Shown: piece after piece, positions 36,093 to 60,909 of the stretch
Layout of the letters: each line of letters opens with the position of its first letter
Numbering within the stretch: the first letter of the stretch is position 1
Source of the DNA: Fischerella sp. PCC 9431
Lineage (GTDB): Bacteria > Cyanobacteriota > Cyanobacteriia > Cyanobacteriales > Nostocaceae
Direction of reading: 5' to 3'
Assembly: GCF_000447295.1 (NCBI RefSeq)
Contig: NZ_KE650771.1
Coordinates: 6,312,295 to 6,376,294, forward strand
DNA: 64,000 nucleotides
Program-made: the position numbers and the translations under genes
The notes under the pieces: generated by a model
Databases searched by the model: none
Seen by the model: the letters and a program-made list of their open reading frames with translations, nothing else
What the model was told of the DNA's origin: nothing

Positions 36093-37721
36093 CTAAACAG
36101 CGTCTAAAAGGTTTTCGTTAAGATACTCTGATTGCTCTTGAGATTTCATAACATAGGTCAAATACTCATACTGAGATGGCAATGTAGAATTTAACAACTC
36201 GGTCTTCTCCTTAATTGAACGAAATTGTGCTGTAGCCTTGTGATCGTCCATATATTCCATAATAGGTAAACTGTTTTCAGGTACATGATTAAGACCAAGC
36301 ATCATTACGGAATATGAGTAAGTCTCAAAGCCATGAAAATAGGGATTGATATTCTTTTTATTAGGTAATCTCTTTTTCCACAACTTAAATCTTTGAGATA
36401 GTTCGTCCGGAAGCTGAATATCGTGCTTGGTTGCTTTCCAGAAGGGTGTATCGGTTCTATCGCTAGCATGGTAGTGGAGAATCAAAAAGTCTCGAACACC
36501 ATCTATACACTTAGCGATCGCCTGATTATAGCTCTTGATCAACTCCTCATTCAATGAATTGCTTGGAAAATGACTGACTAATTCTTCAATTCCATGTTGA
36601 ATAAAGAAAATACCAGTAGACTCTAAGGGTTCGACAAATCCACTAGAAAGACCAATCGCTACACAGTTTTTCACCCATGAGTTTCTGTTGCGTCCAATCC
36701 TCATTTTGATATGTGATGCTTGCTGATGCTGACAAACTGGTCCTAGATGCTGTCTAAATTCCTGTTCGGCATCTTCTTTAGAGATAAAAGCACTGGAATA
36801 GACATAGCCTGCACCATTTCTACCATATAAAGGTATTTCCCATACCCAACCAGACGAAAGTGCTGTTGCTTTAGTGTAAGGGTTAATCCCATCTTTTTTA
36901 ATATTGGTTGGTACTTGCATAGCGATGGCGCTGTCGCACAACAGCGACTCGGAAAAAGAAATAAATGGCTCACTAAGGGCTTTATTGATGAGTAGACCAC
37001 GAAAACCTGTACAGTCTACGAATAAGTCTCCAGTAATGCTACGGTTTCCTTTTGTGTGAACACAATCTATACTGCCTTCTGTTGTTAATTTCACATCTAT
37101 AACGTCATCAACAATCTGCTTTACACCTCTTTGCATGGCATAATCTTTTAAAAACTTAGCAATCAGATTTGCGTCAAAATGATATGCGTAAGGGTACTGT
37201 CCTTCTGCATCAGCAAGTGTGATCAATCTTTTCTCAGAAAAATGCTCATCAGAAAATAATTGTTTTACCCTACTATCAAAAACTTCACCATTGAGATATC
37301 GAGGGGATCTCTGCGAATCGCACAGCGTTGGTGCAGCAAAGCAAGAGTAATCGAATGGTTCACTATGTTTTTTAAGTTTCATCCACCATTCAGAAATACT
37401 AAACCCATCTACAATGTCTAATCTTTCAAAAGGATGAAAGAAATGCTTTTTGTTTGTATTCCAATTAACAAACTTTATTGCCATCTTATATGTAGCATTG
37501 CACTTTGGCATCCATTCATGTTCTTGCAAACCAAGAAAATCGAAAAACGATTTTATACTACTAAAAGTAGCCTCACCAACTCCAATTTTTGTAATATTAG
37601 ATGACTCGATTAGAGTAATAGAAACATTTTTCTGTAAGGCTTTGCTTAAATATGATGCAGTCATCCAACCAGCAGTACCGCCACCAACGATTACGACATT
37701 TGTTGTGTTTTGTGTCAACAT
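36093..37721 (-). CDS. Flavin-dependent tryptophan-type halogenase
   Basis: The 542-residue protein matches PrnA/RebH in length and plan. Its FAD motif is GGGTAGW (13-19), the catalytic Lys is at position 79 (NATYKMAIKFVNW), the halogenase motif WVWEIP is at 292-297, and SSGFVEPLESTG at 359-370 carries the Glu/Ser-Thr of the chloride site. Known enzymes use FADH2, O2 and chloride to chlorinate Trp. The region corresponding to the Trp-binding FWxNGxYYC stretch is altered (FETYSYSVMML), so regiochemistry or even the substrate may differ. No flavin reductase is adjacent. It is the last gene of a minus-strand run with methyltransferase, exporter, SDR and IDO genes. Confidence 0.93.
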   Translation of the reverse strand: MLTQNTTNVVIVGGGTAGWMTASYLSKALQKNVSITLIESSNITKIGVGEATFSSIKSFFDFLGLQEHEWMPKCNATYKMAIKFVNWNTNKKHFFHPFERLDIVDGFSISEWWMKLKKHSEPFDYSCFAAPTLCDSQRSPRYLNGEVFDSRVKQLFSDEHFSEKRLITLADAEGQYPYAYHFDANLIAKFLKDYAMQRGVKQIVDDVIDVKLTTEGSIDCVHTKGNRSITGDLFVDCTGFRGLLINKALSEPFISFSESLLCDSAIAMQVPTNIKKDGINPYTKATALSSGWVWEIPLYGRNGAGYVYSSAFISKEDAEQEFRQHLGPVCQHQQASHIKMRIGRNRNSWVKNCVAIGLSSGFVEPLESTGIFFIQHGIEELVSHFPSNSLNEELIKSYNQAIAKCIDGVRDFLILHYHASDRTDTPFWKATKHDIQLPDELSQRFKLWKKRLPNKKNINPYFHGFETYSYSVMMLGLNHVPENSLPIMEYMDDHKATAQFRSIKEKTELLNSTLPSQYEYLTYVMKSQEQSEYLNENLLDAV

Positions 37722-37797
37722 GATTTAGTTTTTACCTCAAAAAATACTGATGATATTTAATCTTCTAACCCTCAACTTCTACATCGCACTGCTACTT

Positions 37798-38637
37798 TTA
37801 CCCCTGTTTAGGAATAACCATCGTCGCCGCAGGCATAGGTACTAGTTTACATCCGTCTTGTTCAATCACTTTGGATACTAATATCTGTAAAATTTCTTGG
37901 CGTTGTTCAGGTGAAAGTTGACTTGAGTCAGCCTGACAGAAGAAATCCATCAGTACTTTTCCTGCCGGGGAATTTTCTTCAAAACAAAGTTTAACATCGA
38001 TATATTCTGGATAACTTTCTAATGTATACGACAACCCAAGCCCTTCAACTATCGCCTGCATTTCTTGCATTTGCAGCATTTCTGTAAAGCCTTGTCCTGT
38101 GAGAGCAGTATGCTTGAAGATGGTGTCAAATATCACCGCGTCGATAGTATCAAGAGTGATGATCAAAAAGCCATCATTTTTAAGCATCTCCATTGCCTGT
38201 TGCACAAGCCACTTCTCTTGACCAGGCATGTGATACATCGAATGGGTATAATGAACGATATCGAACTTTTCATCTGTCTGAAACTCGTCAATTTTTTCCG
38301 AGTAAACCTTCAAGTTAACATCAGCAAACTCTGTTGCATTAATTTTTTGCTCATAGCGCTGCCGATGTAGATGATTTGGCTCAACAGCCACGTAACGAAG
38401 TGTTAATTCTTTTGGTAGTTGCTGCTTGAGAGTACGTATTACTTGTACATCAAAATCACCTGGTCCAGCCCCTACACTTAATACCGCTACTTGTGGGGGC
38501 TGCGGTTTTAGGTATTGTTGCATGAAATCGAGGGCTACTTGACGATTTACCTGCCAGTTTTCCAGGAAAACTTGGTAGCCTGCATCATAGATTTCATACA
38601 TCTTGATTTCGAGTTCTGTAGGGTAAGTCGCAACCAT
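37798..38637 (-). CDS. HNMT-like SAM-dependent methyltransferase
   Basis: The protein has motif I LSVGAGPGDFDVQV, an acidic VAVEPNH, FDIVHYTHSMYHM and a KNDGFLIITLDT strand, the order of histamine-N-methyltransferase-like enzymes. Many of these methylate amines of small metabolites. The start at 38637 (MVATYPTELE) has AGGA just upstream; the longer frame uses TTG at 38706 and overlaps the SMR gene. It lies between the halogenase and the exporter and probably methylates the product or an intermediate of this locus. Confidence 0.85.
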   Translation of the reverse strand: MVATYPTELEIKMYEIYDAGYQVFLENWQVNRQVALDFMQQYLKPQPPQVAVLSVGAGPGDFDVQVIRTLKQQLPKELTLRYVAVEPNHLHRQRYEQKINATEFADVNLKVYSEKIDEFQTDEKFDIVHYTHSMYHMPGQEKWLVQQAMEMLKNDGFLIITLDTIDAVIFDTIFKHTALTGQGFTEMLQMQEMQAIVEGLGLSYTLESYPEYIDVKLCFEENSPAGKVLMDFFCQADSSQLSPEQRQEILQILVSKVIEQDGCKLVPMPAATMVIPKQG

Positions 38638-38695
38638 TTTCCTAATACTTCTATTGATAATGAGGTGATGTCCAAAGATTCTCAGCGTTAATTTT

Positions 38696-39013
38696 CTAAG
38701 ATTCAATTAGATTTAATCCAATTACTCCCACAAAAATTAAGCCAATAAATAAAGCTTTCGCTGGTCTGAAATTTTCCTGAAAGATAATTGAACCCAATAA
38801 GGATGTCCCAACAATTCCGATTCCAGACCAGATAGCATACCCAATACTAACTTCAATATGTTTCAGAGAAAATCCAAAGAAGCTAAATGCTAAAGGATAG
38901 CCGACAACTGCACCCATTAAATAAATGGGTTGTGAAAAGACATTTGCTAACTTGAGAGAAGTTGTTCCAAATATTTCACAAGCAATTGCCAGAAATAGAA
39001 AAAACCAAGCCAT
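38696..39013 (-). CDS. Small multidrug resistance (SMR/EmrE-type) transporter
   Basis: The 105-residue protein has four membrane helices. The conserved proton/substrate Glu is in ACEIFGTTSLKLA (residue ~13), helix 2 has LMGAVVGYPLAFSFFGF, helix 3 IEVSIGYAIWSGIGIVGTSLLG, and helix 4 ends GLIFVGVIGLNL. EmrE-like SMR dimers export lipophilic cations. In this context export of, or self-protection from, a methylated amine product is a sensible inference. Confidence 0.93.
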   Translation of the reverse strand: MAWFFLFLAIACEIFGTTSLKLANVFSQPIYLMGAVVGYPLAFSFFGFSLKHIEVSIGYAIWSGIGIVGTSLLGSIIFQENFRPAKALFIGLIFVGVIGLNLIES

Positions 39014-39060
39014 TAATTTAATTCCTAATTCATGATTAAGAACTTAACACCAATAAAGGA

Positions 39061-39471
39061 CTAACTCTGCAATTGTTTTTTTAATGTTTCTGGATTCCAA
39101 TATGCTAATAGAGTTTGGATTTTGCCTGAATCATTAATATGGAAAACATCAATCCCCTCACATTGAAACTGACGACCAGTCTTGGTAACACCAGTCGCAG
39201 CCCATTTAACTGCTGCTTGATTCTCAACTACAAACATACTTTCTTTAGTGACTTCGACATTTTGAAATTGACCAAACATGTTTTGAAAAAACTGAGTTAA
39301 TGCAGCATGTCCTTGAATTGATGGAGTACCAACAGGATCGTAGCTCTGACCATCTTGAGCAAATGTTGCTACCCATGCATCTAAATCAAGAGCATGAATT
39401 GCCGCGTAATGGTCTTCTATAGTTTTTTGAGTTACTTCTGGTAAAATTGGCATGATGTTTTGATTTGACAT
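39061..39471 (-). CDS. SnoaL/NTF2-like small protein
   Basis: The 136-residue protein has the cone-shaped NTF2-like pattern: an N-terminal helix EDHYAAIHALDLDAWVATFAQDG region, SYDPVGTPSIQGHAALTQFF, and beta strands including AVKWAATGVTKTGRQF and GIDVFHINDSGKI. Such folds serve as isomerases, cyclases or binding proteins. It carries no diagnostic catalytic dyad that can be assigned. Placement between SDR and SMR genes suggests a pathway role. Confidence 0.85.
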   Translation of the reverse strand: MSNQNIMPILPEVTQKTIEDHYAAIHALDLDAWVATFAQDGQSYDPVGTPSIQGHAALTQFFQNMFGQFQNVEVTKESMFVVENQAAVKWAATGVTKTGRQFQCEGIDVFHINDSGKIQTLLAYWNPETLKKQLQS

Positions 39472-39564
39472 AGTATCAACTACTATTTTTCAATTTGTTT
39501 TCAGTGAATTTGTGAAGTTAGGCGTACGGATGCTGAGGTTCTGATATCAACTCATGAGAAGTTG

Positions 39565-40323
39565 TCACTGCACCGTGAATCCACCATCAACTGTCAACGA
39601 CTGTCCGATGGTAAATCCTGCACCTTCTGAGCAAAGCCACAGGACTGCACTTGCAATTTCTTCAGGTGTTCCTGCACGCCCAATCGGATGCATTGCCATG
39701 ATCTGTTCTTTCATCTGCGGATCTTTCCCAAGAGAACGCTCAAACAAATCGGTGATCACCGTTCCGGGGCTAATCGCATTAATGCGAATCCCCGATTTGG
39801 CATATTCGATCGCAGCTGCTTTTGTTAACCCTAAAACTGCATGTTTGCTCGCTATATAAATCGGGATGCCTGGAAATCCGATTAAACCACCGATTGATGC
39901 AGTGTTGACAATTGCACCCCCACCTGTTTTCAACATCTGGGGAATTTCGTATTTCATTGCCAGCCACACGCCTTTGAGATTGATATTGATTAGTTGATCA
40001 AATGTTTCTTCGGTTTGTTCGGGTAGTGGCGTGGGAATTTGATCGATACCTGCATTATTGAATCCGTAATCAAGCCGACCATAGATTTCAATGGTTTTTT
40101 CAACCATTGTTTTGACATCAGCTTCTTGAGAGACATCAGTTTTAACGAAAAAAGCCTCACCTCCGACATTGCGAATTAGTTCGACAGTTTCTTGACTCTC
40201 CTGAATACGGCGGCTGGCGACAACAACTTTAGCTCCTTGTTTAGCAAATGCGATCGCAGTTGCCCGCCCGATACCTGAACTACCACCTGTAATGATCGCA
40301 ACTTTTCTGGCAAACATTGTCAT
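39565..40323 (-). CDS. Short-chain dehydrogenase/reductase
   Basis: This classical SDR has the cofactor motif TGGSSGIG, NNAGI, the Ser of NTASIGG and the catalytic YIASK. An Arg-Arg pair after the second strand (VVASRRIQ) hints at NADPH use. The start MTMFARKV at 40323 is preferred over the frame start at 40362. It ends SLTVDGGFTVQ, usual for the family. It could reduce or oxidise a ketone or alcohol of the locus's product; the substrate is unknown. Confidence 0.93.
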   Translation of the reverse strand: MTMFARKVAIITGGSSGIGRATAIAFAKQGAKVVVASRRIQESQETVELIRNVGGEAFFVKTDVSQEADVKTMVEKTIEIYGRLDYGFNNAGIDQIPTPLPEQTEETFDQLININLKGVWLAMKYEIPQMLKTGGGAIVNTASIGGLIGFPGIPIYIASKHAVLGLTKAAAIEYAKSGIRINAISPGTVITDLFERSLGKDPQMKEQIMAMHPIGRAGTPEEIASAVLWLCSEGAGFTIGQSLTVDGGFTVQ

Positions 40324-40423
40324 GATAAATCTCTTGCGCTCAATGAAAATCTTTAGTCCCAACTTCCTTGGCTTAATAATGCGTCTTAAGTTCGGTTTAG
40401 CTAGAAAAATGACGATAGAGCAA

Positions 40424-41572
40424 TCAAGAAATTAAATGTGCGGTTGTCTGTTGTTTAACTTTTCTTAAGAAATGGGCAAAGTTTGTACTACCTGTACCTT
40501 GTTTATGCTGGGGTGCCTGCTTGGTTATGTAATGGACCGCAATTTCCATATGCTGCTTTCTAAAATGCTCGATCGCCTGCACGCATTCGTTGTAATGTTG
40601 CCGCAACATCGGATAATTTTCTTGATTGTTGAGTACAAATTCTCGAATTGATGGTCCCATCTCCAACGCTTCAAGAAATCGGCGATGCGCTACGGGCATA
40701 TACACACGTATCTGCCGCAAATATGATTCGTGTTTTTCTCGGTCGTGTTTGATTCCTAAACCTGCATCCAAGGACTGGAGAAGCGAACTTTGTGCTGCAC
40801 TTCCTCCTACAAACATTTGTGGAGTATCGCTGACTCCCTGATAAATTACACCCGGTTCTTGCCAGCTGCCAACAAATGGACGTACACGATGATAAAAAAT
40901 GTATGGGTCACATTTGTTAGTTATTTCTTTAAATATCGCCTGCATTCTAGCAATAACCGCAACAATTTTTTGCAAATGCATACTCACTAGTGCAGTATTA
41001 TCGAGGTTGACAAATTTTTGTGCTTGTACAAGTGATATCAGAGCAGGCGCTCCTTTGGCTTCAATTACGATTGCTGTTGCGTAAAACCAATATTCATCAA
41101 TTCCGCCAAGGAAAAGCTGGAGTGGAGCAATATTATCTAATTCAATTGGTTGAGTTTTATCGATTCTTCTCCAGTTATCCAACACCATCGAACTGAACGC
41201 AACTATTGGCGGGCGATCAAGTATGTTTGCGAGCTTACACAACGGTATGGCCAGCGAATGTGGAATTACTGTTGCAGGTATCTCTCCACCCCATACATAT
41301 GCATTACCAAAGATTGACATGAGAAGAAATGCACGCTTGATTTGCCGTTCAGTTTCTAATTGGGAAATATCAGGAAATTGTACTTTATCAATTACATGTC
41401 TGTATTGACCTGTAATTAAAAGTGCAGACAAGTTTGTAGCAATATTTTCTATGATTTCAAATTGATCTGGTAATCTTTCAAGTGGATCTTCTTTCGGTAA
41501 AAAACCTCGTTCAAAATCTACTTGATAGGCTTCTAAATTATCAATTACTGGTTGTTTTAATTGTGAAAACAT
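40424..41572 (-). CDS. Indoleamine 2,3-dioxygenase homologue (heme)
   Basis: The 382-residue protein aligns end to end with animal/fungal IDO rather than with bacterial tryptophan 2,3-dioxygenase. Shared features are AYVWGGE, IPLCKLANILDRPPIVAFSS, the substrate-binding Phe226/Tyr227/Arg231 in FYHRVRPFVGSW, the FVGGSAAQSS loop, YMPVAHRRFL, and His341 in RKQHMEI as the likely proximal heme ligand. IDO cleaves the 2,3-bond of indoleamines to give N-formylkynurenine-type products. The enzyme is rare in bacteria. Paired with a halogenase and a formamidase-like gene it suggests a halo-kynurenine pathway. Confidence 0.9.
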   Translation of the reverse strand: MFSQLKQPVIDNLEAYQVDFERGFLPKEDPLERLPDQFEIIENIATNLSALLITGQYRHVIDKVQFPDISQLETERQIKRAFLLMSIFGNAYVWGGEIPATVIPHSLAIPLCKLANILDRPPIVAFSSMVLDNWRRIDKTQPIELDNIAPLQLFLGGIDEYWFYATAIVIEAKGAPALISLVQAQKFVNLDNTALVSMHLQKIVAVIARMQAIFKEITNKCDPYIFYHRVRPFVGSWQEPGVIYQGVSDTPQMFVGGSAAQSSLLQSLDAGLGIKHDREKHESYLRQIRVYMPVAHRRFLEALEMGPSIREFVLNNQENYPMLRQHYNECVQAIEHFRKQHMEIAVHYITKQAPQHKQGTGSTNFAHFLRKVKQQTTAHLIS

Positions 41573-41892
41573 TGTCTAGATTGACTGAAGTGTATTAGAA
41601 AATAGTGAACAAATTTCTTTGTAACACTTAGGTTTTGAACAGTTATTAATTATTTTTTATAACTGTTCAAAATTTCTTGTGTTTCATCACCAACCACAAT
41701 TTTGATAAATCTTAATTAGTCACTGGTTGAAGAAATATCATCCTAAACAAAACAGACAAACAGCATCATCTAGCTTCCTGAACATTCAGAAATTTCGGAA
41801 GTAACTCAAGTTCATGAAAAGCGAGACTTTGTTCGTAAGAAACAAAAATATGGCTATGGACAGCAGTGAATAAAAGCTCTCCATGTACTTTA

Positions 41893-42082
41893 GAGCTTAT
41901 TTATAAAGTAAATATTAAGTTAAGTAGGGGAGGCAAAAAGCGGCGTGGATGTTCCTCCCGCTTTATTGCCGTTGTGTTACGGCTATGCAAGGATTAGCCG
42001 CAGGACACCATCTTTCTCGGTGCGTTAAGCGTTGCTATAACGCACCCTACAATTTAAGGTTTACTTTATAAATCGTCTCTTA
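41893..42082. mobile_element. MITE-like element with terminal inverted repeats
   Basis: The 14-bp core ATTTATAAAGTAAA at 41899-41912 is repeated in inverted orientation at 42060-42073, with partial matches on both sides. Between them is a 9-bp hairpin GGTGCGTTA/TAACGCACC (42019-42046) and no coding capacity. The ~190-bp size fits a miniature inverted-repeat transposable element. The rest of 41573-42205 holds no gene. Confidence 0.7.
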
Positions 42083-42205
42083 ACCGCTTGTTTAGGAAAC
42101 CACAGTGCTAAAACATTTCAAAAGCTGTGGAGAATAATCTGTTGGGACAACTATCCTAAGTACAGATTGTACCAATCAAACCGTTATCATCTAATTTGAA
42201 TGCAA

Positions 42206-42919
42206 TCATGTAACATTTAGCTTGTGTGCAATTGGATGATTTTCCGCATACTTGACTAATTCATCCAAGAACTCTTCGACGATTGTGAAAATCTTTTCGA
42301 CAATATCAATTGCATGTATTGATTGCCTCTGGGAAAGTTGTATGCTTCTGAGGAAATCTTCCATATCTGTAGCTCCGATCGCATGACCCGTTTCAACATT
42401 AGAGTGCGAATCGCCAAAGAAGTAACATTTCTGATTAGTAATTTGTTGCAGTTCGCGTGCGACTTGCCTGGTATGAGTGAAGATTATGTGTGCGGTTGCC
42501 TCAATTGCTTCGATCGCAACAAGAACGATAGCTGGATCTGCGTTTGCAGTCATTGTTGCAATCTGGGTACAGGTGAGACGAATTTTTTGAGTTTCTTCTC
42601 CCCAAAGGAACTTCAAGGTATCGCTCAACGGCTGTGGTTGGTCAAATTCTAATGCCTGAAGGTCATGCAAAAACCAAACATAGTGTGTTGCTTCTTCATA
42701 GGTCTGCTTGTTGATAATTTCTTGAATCTCGCTATTTGTAGGCTCTTTTCGCAGAAAGTATTTATTCAAGTCTGCAAATGACATTGCTAGGGGAGCGTAG
42801 CAAGGAACCCAAGCCATTCGTTGCCGAGGATGTATATTTTTATCTTGCAGAAACTGAAAGAATTTTGCCTTGGTCAAATCTTTCTTCTTCGCGTCAATCC
42901 GCGCAAGTATTGCTTGCAT
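42206..42919 (-). CDS. Heme-oxygenase-like diiron oxidase (HDO) family protein
   Basis: This all-helical 237-residue protein has the HDO ligand pattern: Glu75/Glu76 and His79 or His85 in YEEATHYVWFLH, Glu140 (EAIEATAH), and His172-x3-Glu176-x2-His179 (HSNVETGH). Spacing of Glu140 to His172 is 32 residues, as in CADD-type members, with Glu replacing the usual Asp. HDOs cleave C-C bonds, hydroxylate nitrogens or make nitriles and alkenes from amino acids. The neighbouring IDO and halogenase suggest a Trp- or kynurenine-derived substrate; the reaction is not predictable. Separated from IDO by the MITE. Confidence 0.8.
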   Translation of the reverse strand: MQAILARIDAKKKDLTKAKFFQFLQDKNIHPRQRMAWVPCYAPLAMSFADLNKYFLRKEPTNSEIQEIINKQTYEEATHYVWFLHDLQALEFDQPQPLSDTLKFLWGEETQKIRLTCTQIATMTANADPAIVLVAIEAIEATAHIIFTHTRQVARELQQITNQKCYFFGDSHSNVETGHAIGATDMEDFLRSIQLSQRQSIHAIDIVEKIFTIVEEFLDELVKYAENHPIAHKLNVT

Positions 42920-43270
42920 TATTTTTAGTTGAGTTTGATTACTATTAGGTATTAAGTTTAGATACTTTGAGTACGCTAATTGCTCGCCGCATTTTTATAT
43001 ATCTTCCACCTACTCTTTGATATTTATCAAACATCTCTAAACAAAGAATATAAAAGCCTCATATAGTCAGGCTTGATATCCAATGTCTAAAGATGTCTAT
43101 TGAATAAGCTTTGAGACTTTTTGCGCTCATTTATCTAAGCAATGTTTAATTATTAAATTTTTATTAAAAAATAGTCTACCGTATTTTTACGTAATTAATT
43201 ATTGAGTTCTGCTCAAAAAATACTCTGTAAACTAGACAATTAAATAATATGTATATATATAAATTTTATG

Positions 43271-43323
43271 TTTGATATGTAAACAAAATAGACAATATGT
43301 CAAATTTATATTTGATATGTAAA
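43271..43323. promoter_or_regulatory. Two direct repeats TTTGATATGTAAA, 40 bp apart
   Basis: Copies at 43271-43283 and 43311-43323 lie in the 554-base divergent gap between the diiron oxidase and the formamidase-like gene. The spacing is close to four helical turns, as expected for a dimeric or paired regulator site. No regulator gene is nearby. The gap holds no other gene. Confidence 0.4.
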
Positions 43324-43473
43324 GAAAAGTAAGAAATTTGTTCTTATGAACCGTAGATCAAGAATTGCGTAACTACTAGCTAGCTGTACGTGCTTATCAC
43401 TATTTGCTTATTAACGAAGAAAGATTAAGATCTTAAAATAGAATTATTTCTAATTTTTCCAATTAGGTAGTCA

Positions 43474-44307
43474 ATGAAATTGAAGATTGTATTAAACTCT
43501 GGAACGTATTCTGTAGAAACACAAACCCCTATAGATATTTCCATTCCACTGCAATTTAATGCTACACATCCAGTTTTCTGGGACGCTCCACAGGCTAGTG
43601 CCAGCACTTATATAGTGGGAGAATTTATTGGTGATACCCGTAGAGGCGGTAGTACTAATGTGGAGGAATATCGCTTCATTCCCCATTGTCATGGTACGCA
43701 TACAGAATGCGTAGGGCATATTTCTAATCAAAGAATTTCCATACACAACGTATTGAAAGACGCTTTCATCCCATCTACTTTGATCACTGTAAAACCACAA
43801 CTGGCGTTGGAAATAGAAGATAGATATCTGCCATCTAAACAACCAGAAGATTGGATGATTTCTCAACAGACATTAATTGACAAGCTCAAGGGGGAAAACT
43901 CGGATTTTATCATGGGGCTAATTATACGAACATTACCCAATGATGAGTCTAAAAAATCACGGGATTATCAGAAACAACCCCCACCCTTTTTATCCTTAAA
44001 TAGTATAGACTATATTATCAGTCTAGGAGTAAAACATCTTCTAGTGGATATACCCTCTGTAGACCGACCTTATGATCAGGGTTACTTGGGTGTGCATCGG
44101 AAATTCTGGAATGTTTTACCAGGAGAACATAATATAGAATCCAATCAATGCTCTTTGAAAACCATATCGGAAATGGTATATGTATCGGATGAAATAGAGG
44201 ATGGACGCTACTTGTTGAATCTTCAAATACCAGCTTTTGTTGCAGACGCAGCTCCATGTCGTCCTTTACTCTACAAATTTATCAAAGCTGATTGTGCGTC
44301 GGATTAG
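43474..44307 (+). CDS. Cyclase-family protein (kynurenine formamidase-like)
   Basis: The 277-residue protein begins with a TYSVETQTPIDISIPL strand and has the metal-binding motif HCHGTHTECVGH (residues 71-82). This is a variant of the HxGTHxDxPxH of KynB-type formamidases in the PF04199 cyclase family. KynB hydrolyses N-formylkynurenine to kynurenine and formate, the step after IDO. It is divergent to the IDO/diiron oxidase genes. Because the Asp-Pro part of the motif is replaced by Glu-Cys-Val, the exact substrate may differ. Confidence 0.8.
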   Translation: MKLKIVLNSGTYSVETQTPIDISIPLQFNATHPVFWDAPQASASTYIVGEFIGDTRRGGSTNVEEYRFIPHCHGTHTECVGHISNQRISIHNVLKDAFIPSTLITVKPQLALEIEDRYLPSKQPEDWMISQQTLIDKLKGENSDFIMGLIIRTLPNDESKKSRDYQKQPPPFLSLNSIDYIISLGVKHLLVDIPSVDRPYDQGYLGVHRKFWNVLPGEHNIESNQCSLKTISEMVYVSDEIEDGRYLLNLQIPAFVADAAPCRPLLYKFIKADCASD

Positions 44308-44501
44308 ATATGAATGATTTTGAATGAATTGAATAAATTGTACATTTTCAGTTAAATATTTTAAATAGGGTCTGCTAAATAACTTTAAAACTCTTATCTT
44401 ATAAGCAATTCGCGGCTATTTTTGGAGAAAAAGTGCAAGAGAATCGGGATATAAGGCTTAAAATCCTTGCATTTCCAATTTATTGAAATCCAAAAAATTG
44501 C

Positions 44502-44530
44502 TGAGGGGTTGACAAAATAGCCCCCTCAGC
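44502..44530 (-). terminator. Intrinsic terminator of the GMC oxidoreductase operon
   Basis: GCTGAGGGG and CCCCTCAGC form a 9-bp stem. On the minus strand six T follow, about 50 bases after the GMC gene's stop. It may also stop the convergent formamidase-like transcript. Confidence 0.7.
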
Positions 44531-44578
44531 TTTAGCCCACATCAATAAAGTAGGAAGTGGCTGGCAACGGCTTGAGTA

Positions 44579-46135
44579 TTAAGCCATACGTTCAATTAAA
44601 TGTTCGCCTACCCGTAAAGCATTAGCAATAATTGTGAGGGTTGGATTAACAGCAGCACTGGAACGGAAGAAACTACCATCTACTACATACAAATTATCAA
44701 CGTCATGAGTACAGCAATTGATATCCAATACAGACGTTTTAGAATCTTCCCCAAAGCGACAAGTACCGCACTGATGCGCCACACCTTGCAGTGGTAGTTT
44801 TTTACGGAAATAGAAAGAGGCGGGAATAATCCTTTCACCACAACCAATTTTTTTCAATACCTGTGTCCAGCGATTGACAAGACGATTGTAGGCTTCGGTG
44901 TTGTTCTCAGTGTAATGCAATTGGATAGAATCACCTCTAAGAGTGACGCGATTATTGGAATCCGGCAAATCTTCCGCAGTCAACCACCAGTCTACTGAGT
45001 GAGTGGCGATCGCTTCAAAAGTATTTCTTTCCTTAAATGATAATCCTAAAACCGATGGAGACTCTTGAGCAATCATATCTGCATTCACTTTACCCAATAA
45101 CTGCACATGACCCATTGGATAATCAAAATCTGCATCACCCCAGTAAAAATCGTTGATTGCTAAAGTTTTTTGAAATGCTGTCAAATTGGATTTCAAACTC
45201 ACCCCAATCATCGCTCCATTCTGATGCTTCATTAAGTTTCGTCCCACCAGATCAGAACTATTGGCTAATCCATTAGGATGCTGCTCATTAGCAGAACGTA
45301 ACAATAAAGCAGCTGAATTAATTGCCCCACAAGCAATCACTACAATATCACTAGAAAAAAAATGAATTTCTCTATCAATTTCGACTTCTACACTAGTAAC
45401 TTCTCGCCCAGTATGACTAGTATGTAACCGTTTTACCTTAGCTTCAGTCATCAGCGTAACATTATCATATTGCTCGGCTGGACGCACACAGTTAACATCA
45501 GCATCGGCTTTTGCATCCACTAGACAAGGAAAACCATCACAAGTATTACAACGAATACAACTACTCAAACGCCGATTCACCTCATTTAACTTGATAGCAA
45601 GAGGCAGATAAAACGGATGATAACCTTCGTCTAATAAAGAGTCATGAATTTCTTGAATACGCGGTTCATGACGAATCGCAGGATAAGGATAATCTTCAGT
45701 TGCAACTGGTTCAGTCGGATCTAGACCCCGTTTACCATGAACTTCATACAGTTTTTCTGCTTGGGTGTAGTAAGGTTCAAAATCGCGGTACTTCAAAGGC
45801 CATTCGGGCGAAATACCACCTTTGTGAATCACCTGATTAAAATCTTGTTCTCGCCAACGAAACAGCGCTCCGCCATAAACTTTAGTGTTACCACCCACAA
45901 AGTAACCTGTACCGGGATGAATAGCTTGTCCTTTTTGGTCGTACCAAACTTCATTGGTATGATAACGGTCTTTCTGTACTACTTCCACGGTATCCCAGTT
46001 AGCTTTCTCACGAGCTAAAAAAGAACCACGTTCTAAAATCAGAATTTTCTTACCAGTGGAAGCAAGTTTATAAGCCAGCGTACCACCACCCGCCCCAGTA
46101 CCAATAATGATTAAATCGTAGTGTGCAGTAGTCAT
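44579..46135 (-). CDS. GMC-family FAD oxidoreductase
   Basis: The 518-residue flavoprotein has the Rossmann motif IIGTGAGGGTLAYKL with acid at ILERGS, the GMC signature GGNTKVYGGALFRW, a cysteine-rich SSCIRCNTCDGFPC segment, and the C-terminal catalytic area HQCGTCRFG ... VDGSFFRSSAAVNPTLTIIANALR. It resembles bacterial glucose-methanol-choline enzymes and cholesterol-oxidase-like dehydrogenases. The Cys-rich motif may bind an iron-sulfur cluster or disulfides. It is the last gene of an operon with a DoxX-like protein and NDH-2, suggesting electrons pass from the alcohol substrate to the quinone pool. Substrate unknown. Confidence 0.88.
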   Translation of the reverse strand: MTTAHYDLIIIGTGAGGGTLAYKLASTGKKILILERGSFLAREKANWDTVEVVQKDRYHTNEVWYDQKGQAIHPGTGYFVGGNTKVYGGALFRWREQDFNQVIHKGGISPEWPLKYRDFEPYYTQAEKLYEVHGKRGLDPTEPVATEDYPYPAIRHEPRIQEIHDSLLDEGYHPFYLPLAIKLNEVNRRLSSCIRCNTCDGFPCLVDAKADADVNCVRPAEQYDNVTLMTEAKVKRLHTSHTGREVTSVEVEIDREIHFFSSDIVVIACGAINSAALLLRSANEQHPNGLANSSDLVGRNLMKHQNGAMIGVSLKSNLTAFQKTLAINDFYWGDADFDYPMGHVQLLGKVNADMIAQESPSVLGLSFKERNTFEAIATHSVDWWLTAEDLPDSNNRVTLRGDSIQLHYTENNTEAYNRLVNRWTQVLKKIGCGERIIPASFYFRKKLPLQGVAHQCGTCRFGEDSKTSVLDINCCTHDVDNLYVVDGSFFRSSAAVNPTLTIIANALRVGEHLIERMA

Positions 46136-46178
46136 TGAAGCTTCTCCAAATATTGGGATTAGTCGTGAAGTACTCTTT

Positions 46179-46694
46179 TTACATATCGTCGTCAGAAACT
46201 GTAACAGTATAATTAGCCATTGCTTGACTACGACGACGGCTCATTTTCTGTTCGTAAGCATCGTAGGCAATACAGATCCAGATTAAAGATATGAAGAGGA
46301 TGTTTTTGTTAAAACTTTCTGCACCGTTGGGAAACAGGCTACCTGCGGGGATAATACCAAATGCCAGAATGATGCTAAATGTCATGATAATCAATAGTAA
46401 CCCTGTCCACCGCACCCAATAATTGAGGGTAAATAACGCACCGAGAACGATTTCTGCTAAAGGTAACAACCAAGCATAGGGAACGGCAATCAGCCAAGGT
46501 AGTGGCCCCACGCCTTCCCATCCTGGTGGAATTCCAGGGCCAATGATTTGCAGTTTTTGAGTTATTACCGTTTGATAAAAACCGTTAGGAACACTGAAAT
46601 TTAAGTAGTTGGCGATACCAGAGAGGAAGAAGAAAAAGCCAATGGTGATGCGATTAACGGTAACGGCTGTGCGGAGGTTGAGTAGGGATTTCAT
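46179..46694 (-). CDS. DoxX-like membrane protein
   Basis: The ~171-residue protein has four hydrophobic helices: ITIGFFFFLSGIANYL, WLLPLAEIVLGALFTL, WTGLLLIIMTFSIILAFG and ILFISLIWICIAY. This is the DoxX/DoxD-like pattern with the typical E-x-x-x-G in helix 2. The start MKSLLNLRT at 46694 has AGGAG five bases upstream and is preferred. Its neighbours are NDH-2 and a GMC oxidoreductase, consistent with a membrane quinone-linked redox role. Confidence 0.8.
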   Translation of the reverse strand: MKSLLNLRTAVTVNRITIGFFFFLSGIANYLNFSVPNGFYQTVITQKLQIIGPGIPPGWEGVGPLPWLIAVPYAWLLPLAEIVLGALFTLNYWVRWTGLLLIIMTFSIILAFGIIPAGSLFPNGAESFNKNILFISLIWICIAYDAYEQKMSRRRSQAMANYTVTVSDDDM

Positions 46695-46755
46695 GATTAC
46701 TCCTAAGCAATTCAAAATTCAAAATTTAAAAATTAAAACCACAGCGAGAAAAACT

Positions 46756-48433: not shown

Positions 48434-50317
48434 CTAAAGTTTCATGATCAAAGCTAATGCATAGTAAGACGGTCTATTTTCATGAGCTTGATTTCCACCT
48501 GTAGAACCGATGCTTACAGCATGGCTATGATTACCAGCCGGGTTAGTTTCAGCTAAAAAGTTAGCAAGAACATTTGTTTGCAAAGGATCTCTTGTTTTCG
48601 CCATATTCCCGCCACCAAAGTCGCCTCCACCACCAGTATCAAATTTCATGGCGTGGCTGTGATTACCTGCATCAAAAGTTGAACCAGAATGACTATGGCT
48701 AGGGATTTGATTGATATTTAGGGTTACAGTATCAGCACCACCTCGATCGCCAACACCATATTGCCGTCCAGATGCTACAATAAATCGATCTCTAAGATCT
48801 GGAGTGCCATTGCGTCCATCACACAATGCCCAGCCAGCAGGGATATTGTTGGCTTGTCCAGACCACATAAGAATCATACCTGTGACTACAGCACCATCAC
48901 CTACTAGCTTGCTAGCCATAACTATTCCAGCCTTGAGATCAGCTTCTCTTCCTCGGTTTAAGTCCCAAAATACAAACTCACCAGTGCTGTTTTGGGCTGT
49001 GCCATGATAGCCTAACCATCCCCAGTATTGATTGCTTTGATGAAAGCGAATTTTAGTATATTGCCTAAAATCATTAGTATTAGGGGAAAAGATTTCGAGA
49101 TGATAATCATTTGTGCTTTCTGGAATTGCTGCTTTATGTACACTCAGCGACCCAGCAAAACGACTATTGCCACCCTCAACATTAAGTGTATAGTTATCTA
49201 AATCGGTTGTGCCAATGCCAAGGTTACGGTCAATGGTTAAGGAGCCAGTAGTATGCACAGCAGCATCAATCTGTAGCGCACCAGAGGAATGACTTGAGCG
49301 TACAATACCATGCATTGTAATTACATCATTGTCATTGTCCCCCAAAGAGATATTACCAGCCATGTGTTCAGTATCACGGGCAATGACATCGCCTTGAACT
49401 TCTAAATTACCAGAAACACTAAGATTCCCAACAATGCCTGCGTTACCTGTTACCTCCAATTGATCTCGGACGCTCAGTGAGCCTGTGACACTCAAAGCAG
49501 AATTAGTGGCGATCGCACCTTCTACTTGCAAGTTTTGAGCAATGTTAATATTGCCCCGGAAGTTACTTTGATCAGCACGTACCTCAAACTGAGAAAAGTT
49601 ATTGCCATCATCCTGAGATAGCAACACTTCGTTTGCTGTATCAGAAACGCTTAGTTGCAAACCATTGTCAATGGAGGCAATTTTCCCCGCCCTTACTTGT
49701 TCAACTTGTTCTCCTACAATTTGGGGACGACGTAACAGGAGTTCTTGCAACGTTTTGCTCACCAAACGTCTTCCCTGGGCCTGTAAATCGGTGAGTTCGC
49801 CACTACTATTAATTGTGATTCTTGCCAGTACAATTGAAGTACCATCTTCAAGATAACTAGTTACAGGCTGCAAACGTATCCAGGGTACATATTCATATCT
49901 TCCCAAAGGACCCTCATCAAAGCGGAGAATTTGAGAAAATTGAATCGTAATCAAATAAGAAATATCTTCTGTTTGGGCATAACGCCTCAATTCTAGGACT
50001 ACCGGGACACTCACTTCCTCGTGTTCTTCATTAGGGGGATTGTTGCCAATGTCACCTCTGCCAGTGGAAGCAAGAGAAATCAGTTGTCCTTGAATATCAA
50101 CAGCGACTCCTGGTGCAATGATGACGGTAGTACCGCCAATCCTACCATTAACTTCGAGTCCTTGAGCCACACCCCACTCTTGGAAGTTGGCAAGTTGCAT
50201 TCGGTTTAAGGGTAGGTGAAATTCATTGAAGTCTTCATCAAAGTTCCTAGCAGAAAAATCGCCTTCAGTAAAAGGTGGTTCGGAATAACGATTTCTTTTA
50301 AGGGGTTCGTATTGCAT
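48434..50317 (-). CDS. eCIS tail fibre with collar domain (paralogue 1)
   Basis: The 627-residue protein starts with a conserved fibre N-terminus (KRNRYSEPPFTEGDFSARN, LNRMQLANFQEWG) shared with its neighbour at 50629. A repetitive beta-rich shaft follows (LSVTGSLSVRDQLEVTGNAG). A phage tail-collar domain ends the chain (MWSGQANNIPAGWALCDG, TPDLRDRFIVASGR, IPSHSHSGS, NRPSYYALALIMKL). Collar proteins bind surfaces or receptors; this is probably the contractile injection system's target-recognition fibre. It is the last gene of the operon. Confidence 0.88.
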   Translation of the reverse strand: MQYEPLKRNRYSEPPFTEGDFSARNFDEDFNEFHLPLNRMQLANFQEWGVAQGLEVNGRIGGTTVIIAPGVAVDIQGQLISLASTGRGDIGNNPPNEEHEEVSVPVVLELRRYAQTEDISYLITIQFSQILRFDEGPLGRYEYVPWIRLQPVTSYLEDGTSIVLARITINSSGELTDLQAQGRRLVSKTLQELLLRRPQIVGEQVEQVRAGKIASIDNGLQLSVSDTANEVLLSQDDGNNFSQFEVRADQSNFRGNINIAQNLQVEGAIATNSALSVTGSLSVRDQLEVTGNAGIVGNLSVSGNLEVQGDVIARDTEHMAGNISLGDNDNDVITMHGIVRSSHSSGALQIDAAVHTTGSLTIDRNLGIGTTDLDNYTLNVEGGNSRFAGSLSVHKAAIPESTNDYHLEIFSPNTNDFRQYTKIRFHQSNQYWGWLGYHGTAQNSTGEFVFWDLNRGREADLKAGIVMASKLVGDGAVVTGMILMWSGQANNIPAGWALCDGRNGTPDLRDRFIVASGRQYGVGDRGGADTVTLNINQIPSHSHSGSTFDAGNHSHAMKFDTGGGGDFGGGNMAKTRDPLQTNVLANFLAETNPAGNHSHAVSIGSTGGNQAHENRPSYYALALIMKL

Positions 50318-50339
50318 AATTTTCGATTTAAGCAGTTAA

Positions 50340-50582
50340 TTAAGTTTTGTTTTCCATCAATTCTTGAGGAATGACACCGTTGCTGTCTCCAGCGAGATTT
50401 TCTGTCTCCTGTTGTGCTTCTGTTGCTGCTAGTAGTTCTTCGAGTATTTGAATTGCACCACTAATGCGTAATAGAGTATTTTGTAGGTTGAGTTGTTTTG
50501 TCTCTAAGTCTGCGAGCATTTTTTGACCAGATGCGAATTCAGTCTTGAGGGATTGGAGGCGTTGTTCGAGTTGTTGTTTCAT
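50340..50582 (-). CDS. Small coiled-coil protein of the eCIS fibre region
   Basis: The 80-residue protein is nearly all heptad-like helix (EQRLQSLKTEFASGQKMLAD, then LETKQLNLQNTLLRISGAIQ). Proteins of this size occur beside phage-like tail fibre genes and may chaperone or trimerise them. No enzyme motif is present. It is sandwiched between the two fibre genes. Confidence 0.75.
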   Translation of the reverse strand: MKQQLEQRLQSLKTEFASGQKMLADLETKQLNLQNTLLRISGAIQILEELLAATEAQQETENLAGDSNGVIPQELMENKT

Positions 50583-50628
50583 TTTGAAATTGAGTGAAGA
50601 ATAATCTGTTTATTTATAAAAACAGTCG

Positions 50629-52761
50629 TCAACCTACGAGTTCTTTCCTAATAAATAACACCCATACATTCCAATATTCGTGATGATTGTGGCTTCGGAA
50701 GTCCGCATAAATCGACCATTGATTGCCATTGATATAAGGGTAGATTTGAATTATGTTACCTTTGTCGTTTTCGTTAATGTCTCCTTCCAGGGCTTGGAAA
50801 CCAGCAATTGTTGCTTCCCAATCACGGGCTAAAATCCCAGTATTGTAGTCTCCACGAAAGCCTTCGTATTTTCTGACCATAAAAGGCTTACTACCTTTTA
50901 TTCTGATATCGCCATTTACATCCAAGGTTCCGCTCGGATTAGTCGTGCCGATGCCAACATTACCTTGTTGATCGATTAGCATTCTTGTACCCTGAGTAAC
51001 ATCGTGGAACATAAGTTTGCCAGCACCTTCAGAATTTTCTGCTCCCGATGCAATAATGCTCCAGTTACGAGCACCGTTTGATGTATTATGAAGCCTGACC
51101 CAAGTCCCTCCAATTGAAGGACTCTCAACAATTAAATGGGCAAATTGCTTCTGATTGTTATCAACAATATGTAACTTGGCACCAGGATTGGTTGTACCGA
51201 TGCCAACATTATTCCCAACCGAGTTAATTGCTAATGGCTTATTTCCGTGAGATTGAATCCAGCTATAGTCTTGATGATAGCCCAGTCTAAGATTGGACTG
51301 ATTTGTCGGACCAATAATGAATGCATTACCATGAGCATCCTGCTTTTGATGAATAATATTTAGTTTCGCCCCTGGATTAGTTGTGCCGATGCCAACATTA
51401 CCATCATTTTGTACAGTCAGTTGCCATGCATCTCCATTCCAAAAGCCTAGTTTATTAGTATCATGACCTCCGACAAAACGATCAGAAGCAACCCAAAGAC
51501 CCCCATCATTGTTGTTCGACTGTAAACGACCCTTAACAATAAAATCGACATTTTGACCCCCACTACCATTCACCTCTAGCTTCGCTCCTGGATTCGTTGT
51601 TCCAATGCCAAGGCTACCCTCAATGGTTAAATTTTCAGTTGTGTGCAAAGCATCATCTACCCGTAGTGTCCCTGATGAATGCCCTGATCGCAACACGCCT
51701 GCAATTTTCACTTCATCATTGTCTGCATCACCCAAGGATACATTACCAGAGACATGCTCGACATCTCGTGCTGTCACATCTCCCTGTACCTCTAGATTAC
51801 CAGAGATTTTCAGGTTCCCAGCAATGTTGGCGTTGCTGGTGACAGCAAGTTCACTGGTATTTAAAGTCGCAGTTGCGATCGCACCTGTGACCTGTAAATC
51901 TTGTGTAATATCACAGTTGCCAGTTACACTTAAACTACTAGAGGCGATCGCACCTGTAACTTGCAAATCTTGATTAACATTCAGCTTGCCAGTGAAATTA
52001 CTGGTATCGGTACGCACCTCTAGCCGAGCAAAGTTATTACCATTCTCCTGAGATAGCAAGACTTCGTTGCCAGCATCAGGGACACTCAATTGCAAACCCT
52101 GATCTGTAGCCGCAAGTTTCCCTGCACTAACTTGTTTGACTTGTTTGACTTGTTCCCCTACTATCTGTGAACGACGCAACAGTAGTTCTTGCACTGTTTT
52201 ACTTACCAAACGCCGTCCCTGTGCTTTTAACTCTGTCAGTTCCCCATTACTTCTAACTACTACTCTTGCCAGTACAACAGAAGTACCATCGTCCACAAAG
52301 CCATTCACAGGCTGTAAACGTAGCCAAGGTGCATGTTCGTATCTACCCAGAGGTCCTTCATCGAAACGGAGAATTTGGGAAAACTGAATCGTGAGATAAA
52401 GGGGTTTATCAGGTGTTTGAGTGTAGCGCTTCAGATCTAGTACGACCGGGACTTTTACTTCTTCGTGGTCTTCGCTTGGGGGGTTTTTACCAATATCACC
52501 CTTGCCCTTACTAGAAAGAGAAATCAGTTGTCCTTGGCGATCAACAGCAACTCCTGGTGCAACGGTGAGGCTTGTACCACCAATACTACCACTTACTTCT
52601 AATCCTTGAGCAACTCCCCATTGCTGGAAATTAGCCAGTTGCATCCGATTTAAAGGGAGATGAAATTCAGTAAAATCTTCATCAAAGTTTCTGGCAGAAA
52701 AATTACCTTCATTTCGAGGAGGTTCAGAATAGCGATTGCGTTTAATGGGTTCGGATGACAT
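50629..52761 (-). CDS. eCIS tail fibre with GIGTTNP repeats (paralogue 2)
   Basis: The protein of ~710 residues shares its N-terminus (KRNRYSEPPRNEGNFSARN) with the collar fibre at 48434. Its distal half instead has four VGIGTTNPGAKL-type repeats, a trimeric fibre/intramolecular-chaperone-like pattern, and a different tip. The start MSSEPIKRN at 52761 has AAGGA eight bases upstream; the frame extends to 52902 but overlaps the preceding gene. Two fibres with a common base and different tips suggest alternative or combined target recognition. Confidence 0.85.
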   Translation of the reverse strand: MSSEPIKRNRYSEPPRNEGNFSARNFDEDFTEFHLPLNRMQLANFQQWGVAQGLEVSGSIGGTSLTVAPGVAVDRQGQLISLSSKGKGDIGKNPPSEDHEEVKVPVVLDLKRYTQTPDKPLYLTIQFSQILRFDEGPLGRYEHAPWLRLQPVNGFVDDGTSVVLARVVVRSNGELTELKAQGRRLVSKTVQELLLRRSQIVGEQVKQVKQVSAGKLAATDQGLQLSVPDAGNEVLLSQENGNNFARLEVRTDTSNFTGKLNVNQDLQVTGAIASSSLSVTGNCDITQDLQVTGAIATATLNTSELAVTSNANIAGNLKISGNLEVQGDVTARDVEHVSGNVSLGDADNDEVKIAGVLRSGHSSGTLRVDDALHTTENLTIEGSLGIGTTNPGAKLEVNGSGGQNVDFIVKGRLQSNNNDGGLWVASDRFVGGHDTNKLGFWNGDAWQLTVQNDGNVGIGTTNPGAKLNIIHQKQDAHGNAFIIGPTNQSNLRLGYHQDYSWIQSHGNKPLAINSVGNNVGIGTTNPGAKLHIVDNNQKQFAHLIVESPSIGGTWVRLHNTSNGARNWSIIASGAENSEGAGKLMFHDVTQGTRMLIDQQGNVGIGTTNPSGTLDVNGDIRIKGSKPFMVRKYEGFRGDYNTGILARDWEATIAGFQALEGDINENDKGNIIQIYPYINGNQWSIYADFRSHNHHEYWNVWVLFIRKELVG

Positions 52762-52823
52762 AGTTGTTTCCTTGATTTGATTTAGTGGATAAGCTAAGTC
52801 GGCACAAATGTAGGATGTTAAAT

Positions 52824-52851
52824 GATAACTGATAACTGATAACTGATAACT
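52824..52851. repeat. Heptanucleotide tandem repeat GATAACT x4
   Basis: Four perfect 7-bp copies lie in the gap between the fibre and tail-protein genes. It is another STRR-type array. Confidence 0.85.
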
Positions 52852-52852
52852 T

Positions 52853-54667: not shown

Positions 54668-54679
54668 ATTATTTAGCTA

Positions 54680-56797: not shown

Positions 56798-56811
56798 TTT
56801 GATTAGTTCCT

Positions 56812-57201
56812 TTATTGTGATTCTAGATAGAAAGGATAAATTAAATTTTGTAATTCGTATGTTGATTTTATCCGATAAGAAACTTTGATTATCAAACAGT
56901 TATGATCGTAATCATTATCAATTACTATTTCTTCAACAATAATTCTTGGCTCCCAAATTTTTAAAGCTTCTTCAACATAATAATGGGCAAGGTTTGCTGT
57001 CGCTCGGTTATTAGGTGCAAATAATAGGCTATTTAAGTTACAACCAAAGTTTGGTCGCATCACCCGCTCGTTATATTGAGTTCCTAAAATAAAGCGAATC
57101 GAATCTTGAATTTTTTGCTGCTGTTGGGATTGAGCAATACCACCACGAGCATTAATTTTTAAAGGAAAAGCGAAACCTTTACCGAGAAAATCAGCATTCA
57201 T
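56812..57201 (-). CDS. GPW/gp25 baseplate wedge protein (Afp9 type)
   Basis: The 129-residue protein matches gp25: GKGFAFPLKINARGGIAQSQ, IRFILGTQYNERVMRPNFGC and HYVEEALKIWEPRIIVEEI. It initiates sheath polymerisation at the baseplate. The conserved EPRI near residue 90 fits the family. It is directly upstream of baseplate J. Confidence 0.93.
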   Translation of the reverse strand: MNADFLGKGFAFPLKINARGGIAQSQQQQKIQDSIRFILGTQYNERVMRPNFGCNLNSLLFAPNNRATANLAHYYVEEALKIWEPRIIVEEIVIDNDYDHNCLIIKVSYRIKSTYELQNLIYPFYLESQ

Positions 57202-57206
57202 AGTCC

Positions 57207-57599
57207 TTAATCTCCTACCAAAACATTAGGAATACCACCTAAAACTATGCCTACTGCATTACCATTGTTTTGTTGTGTTGTATCAAACTGCCGCACAACA
57301 TTACCACTTTCTGCTCTAACTGTTTGGCTAAATGTGACAAACTCTACTCGACCTTTGACTGTACCACTCCTAATACCACCCCCGGAACCAGCTTCATCAC
57401 CAGTAGTCGTGGGAATCTGACTATTACTGGTAACTACTGGTTGACCGCCAACTCGCACGCTACTAGCTGTCTGTACAGTGCTACTAAGCTGTCCGATATT
57501 AGGATAAGCAACAGGAACTTGCCCGGTGGGACTGGGTGTATTGCACACATCAGGAAAGGCAAAACAAATGCCTTGAGTTGTTGTAATCGGTTTACCCAT
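57207..57599 (-). CDS. PAAR-like tip protein (DUF4150)
   Basis: The 130-residue protein begins MGKPITTTQGICFAFPDVC and contains YPNIGQLSSTVQTAS, VRVGGQPVVTSNSQIPTTTGDEAG and a terminal DTTQQNNGNAVG. These are hallmarks of DUF4150, a PAAR-like cap on VgrG/spike proteins in type VI secretion and eCIS loci. The start at 57599 is preferred over 57653, which runs into the preceding gene. It would sharpen the tip of the injection spike. Confidence 0.88.
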   Translation of the reverse strand: MGKPITTTQGICFAFPDVCNTPSPTGQVPVAYPNIGQLSSTVQTASSVRVGGQPVVTSNSQIPTTTGDEAGSGGGIRSGTVKGRVEFVTFSQTVRAESGNVVRQFDTTQQNNGNAVGIVLGGIPNVLVGD

Positions 57600-57601
57600 A
57601 A

Positions 57602-58408: not shown

Positions 58409-58410
58409 AG

Positions 58411-60102: not shown

Positions 60103-60156
60103 GGGTAATTGCTAATAAGTTATTTAGTTATTAGTTGTTTTTGCAATATTAGTTGA

Positions 60157-60903: not shown

Positions 60904-60909
60904 TTAATC

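Follow-up and report, generated by a model that had tools for sequence, protein, structure and literature searches.

Sequence evidence for a possible tryptophan-remodelling gene cluster pairing an AetD-family diiron oxidase with an indoleamine 2,3-dioxygenase in Fischerella sp. PCC 9431

Examination of a 64,000-nucleotide stretch of the 7.17 Mb genome of the cyanobacterium Fischerella sp. PCC 9431 (G000:C1:6312295-6376294, hereafter the window) revealed a set of eight genes at 36.1-44.3 kb in which a tryptophan (Trp) halogenase, an indoleamine 2,3-dioxygenase (IDO) and a heme-oxygenase-like diiron oxidase (HDO) of the AetD family lie together. Seven of the genes run along the minus strand as HDO, IDO, short-chain dehydrogenase (SDR), SnoaL, SMR, methyltransferase (MT) and halogenase, in that order; the eighth, coding for a cyclase-family hydrolase, is on the plus strand and divergent from the HDO gene. 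Their family identities are supported by Pfam and NCBIfam profiles. G-numbers below denote genomes compared and L-numbers denote loci.

36093-37721, minus strand: tryptophan halogenase, predicted C5-selective (PF04820, E 4e-149; FET triad, K79, WVWEIP)
37798-38706, minus strand: HNMT-like methyltransferase (weak generic methyltransferase matches; nearest PDB chain histamine N-methyltransferase, E 2.6e-7)
38696-39013, minus strand: SMR-type small exporter (PF00893, E 4e-25)
39061-39471, minus strand: SnoaL/NTF2-like protein (SnoaL_2, E 6e-21)
39565-40362, minus strand: SDR (E 2e-67)
40424-41572, minus strand: IDO (PF01231, E 2e-104)
42206-42919, minus strand: AetD-family HDO (AetD in PDB, E 2e-44; PF14518 only 6e-4, below cut-off)
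43474-44307, plus strand: PF04199 cyclase-family hydrolase, candidate formylkynurenine formamidase (E 6e-11, 43 bits against a cut-off of 23)

A preliminary description of this DNA had placed the same eight genes within 8.2 kb, next to a hapalindole-type cluster, and had pointed to Lys79 and WVWEIP in the halogenase, the heme residues His341 and Arg231 in the IDO and a GTHTE metal motif in the cyclase. All of this stands: the open reading frames (ORFs) lie where it put them, the profiles support the families, the neighbouring cluster is present at about 0.4-29.6 kb and every motif was found, GTHTE as part of HCHGTHTE, which begins at residue 71.

The window HDO shares its fold over the whole chain with AetD, the nitrile synthase of the aetokthonotoxin pathway (PDB 8ji2-8ji7, 8twn, 8twt, 8tww, 8zvg and 8zvh), at 33-34% identity, well above other HDOs. 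A second relative of known activity is the skatole synthase SktA, described in a review that cites Adak et al. 2025 (doi 10.1021/jacs.4c14573). All six metal ligand positions are kept as three histidines and three carboxylates in the AetD spacing (E76, H79, E140, H172, E176, H179), as is F48, so that the enzyme should still bind the amino-acid end of its substrate at Fe1. Six residues are changed from AetD to the window protein: M139 to I139, A142 to T142, S214 to V214, Y167 to F167, D76 to E76 and F44 to L44. In an excerpted account of AetD, F44 clamps the indole, Y167 bonds the carboxylate and S214 contacts the C7 bromine. The window HDO thus differs from AetD proper at all four of M139, A142, S214 and Y167, and it agrees only at T142 with the SktA pocket, given as T139, T142 and F214 in excerpts of a review (PMC13108848). 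Characterised AetD/SktA-family members take the alanyl side chain off Trp, and we predict an oxidative side-chain removal of this kind for the window HDO.

A survey of 217 genomes of the same family, with that of PCC 9431 counted each time, found matches to the HDO in 140 genomes, to the halogenase (at any strength) in 55, to the IDO in 12 and to the cyclase in 2. Forty-three loci including the window, picked from the best matches and not at random, were fetched and their ORFs clustered. Among 38 HDOs, taken as best and halogenase-linked matches and not drawn at random from the 140 genomes, 15 are accompanied by a halogenase plus an FMO ('c3'), 12 beside another FMO ('c4', which includes the IDO locus of G084) and three with an IDO. 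The HDO-IDO pairing is thus a third arrangement beside the halogenase-linked and FMO-linked ones. It occurs in three genera, represented by the window, by G084 (HDO-FMO-IDO-SDR, the contig ending 0.3 kb further on) and by G061 (HDO-MT-IDO, then a sensor kinase); IDO and SDR are adjacent in the window and in G084, where the SDRs are 77% identical.

The three IDO-linked HDOs form one clade (support 99/97), in which the window protein pairs with that of G061. All three carry valine at position 214, where the 35 others carry phenylalanine without exception. They also share F167 (2/35 others), E76 (3/35) and a residue other than Phe at 44 (5/35). From these replacements we infer that the clade may accept a substrate with a different ring but an amino-acid end of the same type, a description that kynurenine would fit. 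The 'c3' HDOs carry T142 and F214 in 15/15 cases and T139 in 10/15, and we therefore take the halogenase-FMO-linked arrangement as putatively of skatole type, the SktA residues used here being those of the review and not of the SktA sequence. The preliminary description had proposed to look for co-occurrence of these genes, and the answer is divided: HDO occurs with IDO in three genomes and with a halogenase in many, but only PCC 9431 showed all eight genes together. For part of the set, the partial co-occurrence (HDO-IDO, IDO-SDR, HDO-halogenase) is more than chance.

Two further observations concern the HDO family at large. A gene of about 1,600-1,900 amino acids coding for a Ser/Thr kinase-AAA-GAF-histidine kinase protein lies at 29/38 HDO loci (e.g. 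L020:3453-8861) and not in the window; such a large kinase (Pkinase-AAA-GAF-HisKA) also accompanies an HDO module on Calothrix NIES-4101 plasmid4 (L179), and it may sense or control the module's product. A distant AetD-like domain (about 23-27% identity) was found in 328 plasmid records, including 262 from Escherichia, 36 from Piscirickettsia and 22 from Salmonella; in the one record examined (L180:4977-6479) it forms the first part of a hypothetical protein of about 500 amino acids.

The IDO is the sole PF01231 match in the PCC 9431 genome, a match that spans its whole length. In an alignment with human IDO1, the proximal H341 falls at human H346 and R231 at human R231, an arginine that binds the substrate carboxylate; human S167 is replaced by Ala and Y126 by Phe. 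Trp dioxygenation is predicted on these grounds. The genome gave no match to tryptophan 2,3-dioxygenase (TDO, PF03301) and no kynureninase above cut-off, so that the IDO is hardly expected to feed a normal Trp catabolism that uses these enzymes. A class-wide sample yielded IDOs in 5/388 genomes, PCC 9431 included, and a scan of genome contigs with the IDO yielded one locus, in a metagenome-assembled genome of Acidobacteria. The IDO tree was built from 15 rows, leaving out the split copy of G034 (L013, L015-L017), the fused copy of G215 (L014, below the 60-bit score line) and G219 (L128).

A second IDO lineage, about 30-39% identical to the window IDO, is present at L023, L025, L026, L027, L029, L030 and L130, in a run of genes for HPPD, a homogentisate dioxygenase-like protein (these two named by eye), a TenA/HDO-like protein, an AMP-ligase and the IDO. 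At L021:6718-10164, an IDO domain is fused to FAD/NAD reductase and cytochrome b5 domains in a protein of 1148 amino acids, and that genome carries a second IDO some 8 kb away.

The halogenase shows the PF04820 profile, GxGxxG, WxWxIP and the catalytic Lys, features with established roles in flavin-dependent halogenases; K79 is accompanied by WVWEIP at 292 and LESTG at 366. Its best PDB matches are 8fov (a Trp 5-halogenase, 614 bits), 5hy5 (a Trp 6-halogenase, presumably SttH, 610 bits) and 2wet (590 bits), and since 5- and 6-halogenases score nearly alike, the family score alone leaves the ring position unsettled. A triad separates PyrH (F451 E452 T453) from SttH (L460 P461 P462), as given in excerpts of PMC5071727. 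The window protein has the PyrH-like FET at 465-467 and not LPP, and FET or FES is found in 22 listed relatives, so that a Trp 5-halogenase is predicted. The triad is no full proof of this selectivity, since its transfer from PyrH into SttH yielded only 32% 5-chloro-Trp according to the same excerpts. They also report that SttH chlorinates kynurenine at C5, so that the same 5-halokynurenine would result whether the halogen is added before the ring is opened or afterwards. The window enzyme is 77% identical to HDO-adjacent halogenases, and 17 of its 24 close relatives have an HDO within 1.5 kb (the halogenase tree comprised these 24 loci, at 70-77% identity, with L100 and the window).

The only other match to the cyclase among the 217 genomes, in G083, is 81% identical and is followed after 44 bp by the gene of a true kynureninase (TIGR01814; 441 bits, cut-off 246). 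This adjacency, at a single locus, supports deformylation of formylkynurenine by the window cyclase, which we regard as a candidate formylkynurenine formamidase. PCC 9431 encodes one other PF04199 protein, with a stronger match (134.5 bits), which could also serve as formamidase.

Taken together, the computed gene identities, catalytic residues, AetD fold, HDO-IDO neighbourhood, HDO clade and halogenase triad suggest a Trp-remodelling pathway that would combine ring opening of the kynurenine type with a side-chain excision like that of AetD or SktA, a reading to which we assign a probability of roughly 0.4. The halogenase would chlorinate or brominate Trp at C5, the IDO would cut the indole C2-C3 bond to give 5-halo-N-formylkynurenine, and the PF04199 protein would take off the formyl group to leave 5-halokynurenine. 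The HDO, with its diiron amino-acid site intact and its ring pocket altered, would then remove the amino-acid end. An SktA-like reaction would give 5-halo-2-aminoacetophenone with release of cyanide, and would lead to that compound regardless of which enzyme, IDO or HDO, comes first; an AetD-like reaction would give a 2-aminobenzoyl nitrile, which would hydrolyse easily. The SDR would finally act on the ketone. A narrower proposal, that the IDO-partnered clade has exchanged Trp for (halo)kynurenine as its substrate and forms (5-halo)-2-aminoacetophenone from it with loss of cyanide, seems unlikely; if true, a single enzyme would give aerobic access to the aminoacetophenone class, and cyanobacteria would use the product as a halogenated signal or defence compound.

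Several results weigh against such a joint pathway. The activities, the order of steps, the halide and the product are all predictions from sequence. Halogenase and cyclase are absent from the IDO loci of G061 and G084 (in the latter the contig ends after the SDR), and in the window 634 bp separate HDO from IDO. E76, F167 and I44 also occur together in two HDOs without an IDO (L109, L112). The IDO phylogeny does not order the window, G061 and G084, and it groups an Acidobacteria IDO without a nearby HDO with them; by identity the window IDO is closer to that of G084, while the HDO pairs with G061. Arg231 is kept in 15/15 IDOs compared and so says little on the order of steps, and the residue at human S167 varies (A, N, H) among the three HDO-linked IDOs. 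The preliminary description had called the cyclase divergent and KynB-like; the kynureninase beside its G083 relative agrees with this, but the protein scores only 24 bits against the cut-off of 223 for arylformamidase KynB (TIGR03035). Neither IDO nor TDO has a match in G083, no relative of the cyclase was found among PDB sequences even with a two-sequence profile, and an AlphaFold 2 model built from two sequences reached a pLDDT of 35.4.

The same enzymes might work in reverse order, the HDO making 5-halo-skatole (or 5-halo-indole-3-carbonitrile) from 5-halo-Trp before the IDO opens the ring and the cyclase deformylates; in the skatole case the end product would again be 5-halo-2-aminoacetophenone. 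This order agrees with the T142 shared with SktA and with the action on Trp of the HDO-family members characterised in the excerpted literature, and the distribution of HDOs (140/217 genomes, against 12 for IDOs) suggests that the older HDO substrate was probably Trp or halo-Trp. However, a skatole or nitrile would offer no carboxylate to the conserved Arg231 of the IDO, and the ring pocket of the IDO-linked HDOs is altered; we consider the reverse order somewhat unlikely. It is quite unlikely that two unrelated functions lie side by side, with halogenase and HDO making a skatole- or nitrile-type compound and IDO and cyclase supplying kynurenine for another use. Halogenase-HDO pairs without an IDO are indeed common, and elsewhere the cyclase pairs with a kynureninase without an IDO, but the HDO-IDO neighbourhood recurs in three genera within one HDO clade and PCC 9431 has no kynureninase above cut-off.

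A halogenated kynurenine could itself be the product or a building block, as in taromycin/gausemycin-type clusters, where a halogenase and a Trp dioxygenase lead to chlorokynurenine (excerpts of PMC12471526). The HDO would then be a tailoring oxidase of other chemistry, for instance N-oxygenation, which the superfamily includes (excerpts of PMC13108848). The preliminary description had read the locus in this direction, and the halogenation, ring opening and deformylation that it proposed fit the sequences; but since the HDO belongs to the AetD/SktA family, whose characterised members cut the alanyl side chain from Trp, the pathway more likely passes through chlorokynurenine than ends with it, and we hold a halokynurenine end product to be very unlikely. 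Highly improbable, finally, is an opening of the hapalindole indole ring by the IDO to give fontonamide/hapalonamide-type products. The hapalindole-type cluster is about 7-36 kb away and ring-opened hapalindoles are known, yet in the excerpts of PMC4849077 that mention them fontonamides arise by singlet-oxygen oxidation, the IDO keeps its Trp-binding residues, and HDO-IDO pairs recur in other genera (hapalindole genes were not searched there).

The remaining genes of the set bear less on the proposed remodelling pathway. The MT, whose true start is probably near 38637 to judge from its relatives, had been counted among the pathway enzymes. MT and SMR lie side by side in 7/7 other loci examined, including those of the same-genus genomes G172, G173 and G174, which have no match to IDO, HDO or cyclase and no halogenase match beyond a very weak one in G173 (E 5e-4). 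The pair is thus weak evidence for the pathway, its inclusion on position alone was rejected, and MT and SMR are probably not pathway-specific. They form a conserved two-gene unit for methylation and export, perhaps of quaternary amines; as the only MT copy in the PCC 9431 genome lies inside the cluster, they may still have been recruited. The SnoaL protein was rejected as a pathway marker, with relatives in 105/217 genomes (best 46-48% identity).

In aetokthonotoxin-type clusters, AetD is accompanied by a second halogenase, a tryptophanase and a P450. None of these was found among the ten proteins scanned at 36093-46715 (the genome was not searched for them), and the partner gene of the window HDO is an IDO. 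With SktA, as the review excerpts describe it, the window HDO has T142 and the ligand set in common; it differs by I139 and V214, and its cluster by the IDO. The halogenase matches PyrH/AbeH-type Trp 5-halogenases over its whole length and has the PyrH-like triad, its regioselectivity and halide being predicted. Taromycin and gausemycin cassettes likewise combine a Trp halogenase with a Trp ring-opening dioxygenase, but there the dioxygenase is a TDO and the product 4-chlorokynurenine, whereas the window has an IDO, a predicted 5-halo product, an AetD-family enzyme and no nonribosomal peptide synthetase. In pyrrolnitrin synthesis, PrnA and PrnB are likewise a halogenase and an IDO-superfamily heme enzyme acting on halo-Trp; PrnB is less than 20% identical to IDO (excerpts of PMC11791213), whereas the window encodes a true PF01231 IDO.

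None of the enzyme kinds is new in itself: HDOs of the AetD/SktA type, Trp halogenases, IDO, formamidases for kynurenine and cassettes that combine a halogenase with a TDO are all known. What seems new is that a clade of AetD-family HDOs is linked to an IDO; among the open-licence papers listed, none was seen to describe an AetD-family enzyme together with an IDO or acting on kynurenine. AetD and SktA dismantle the Trp side chain in quite different ways on one diiron fold, and a natural clade with a changed pocket and a ring-opening dioxygenase offers a way to ask what determines substrate and outcome in the HDO family. The product of the cluster may be a so far undescribed small halogenated molecule, and a class of such compounds is predicted for cyanobacteria, whose formation may also release cyanide.

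Upstream in the window, the hapalindole-type cluster comprises an HpiC1-like cyclase, a Rieske protein, two DIT1_PvcA proteins, TauD and an aromatic prenyltransferase, and carries its own Trp- and isoprenoid-supply genes; phosphofructokinase-like and MGH-like genes (named by eye) separate it from the eight-gene set. When same-genus genomes were compared in search of an empty site, the MGH flank proved to be conserved (74-81%) and the fetched flanks contain no further window gene except an SDR at 33%. The gap between IDO and HDO (41573-42205) holds a stretch that by eye looks G+C-richer and repeat-like. A promoter and terminator scan returned 25 and 4 sites, no more than in shuffled sequence (means 28.9 and 5.7), and no near-identical DNA was found in plasmid records. 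Downstream lie GMC, DoxX and NDH genes, which no analysis here tied to the pathway. Seven proteins of a further minus-strand run, at 48434-62181, gave no match in PADLOC; with Baseplate J, gp25, Phage_base_V, CIS_tube and eCIS_core, this run has the content of an extracellular contractile-injection-type locus.

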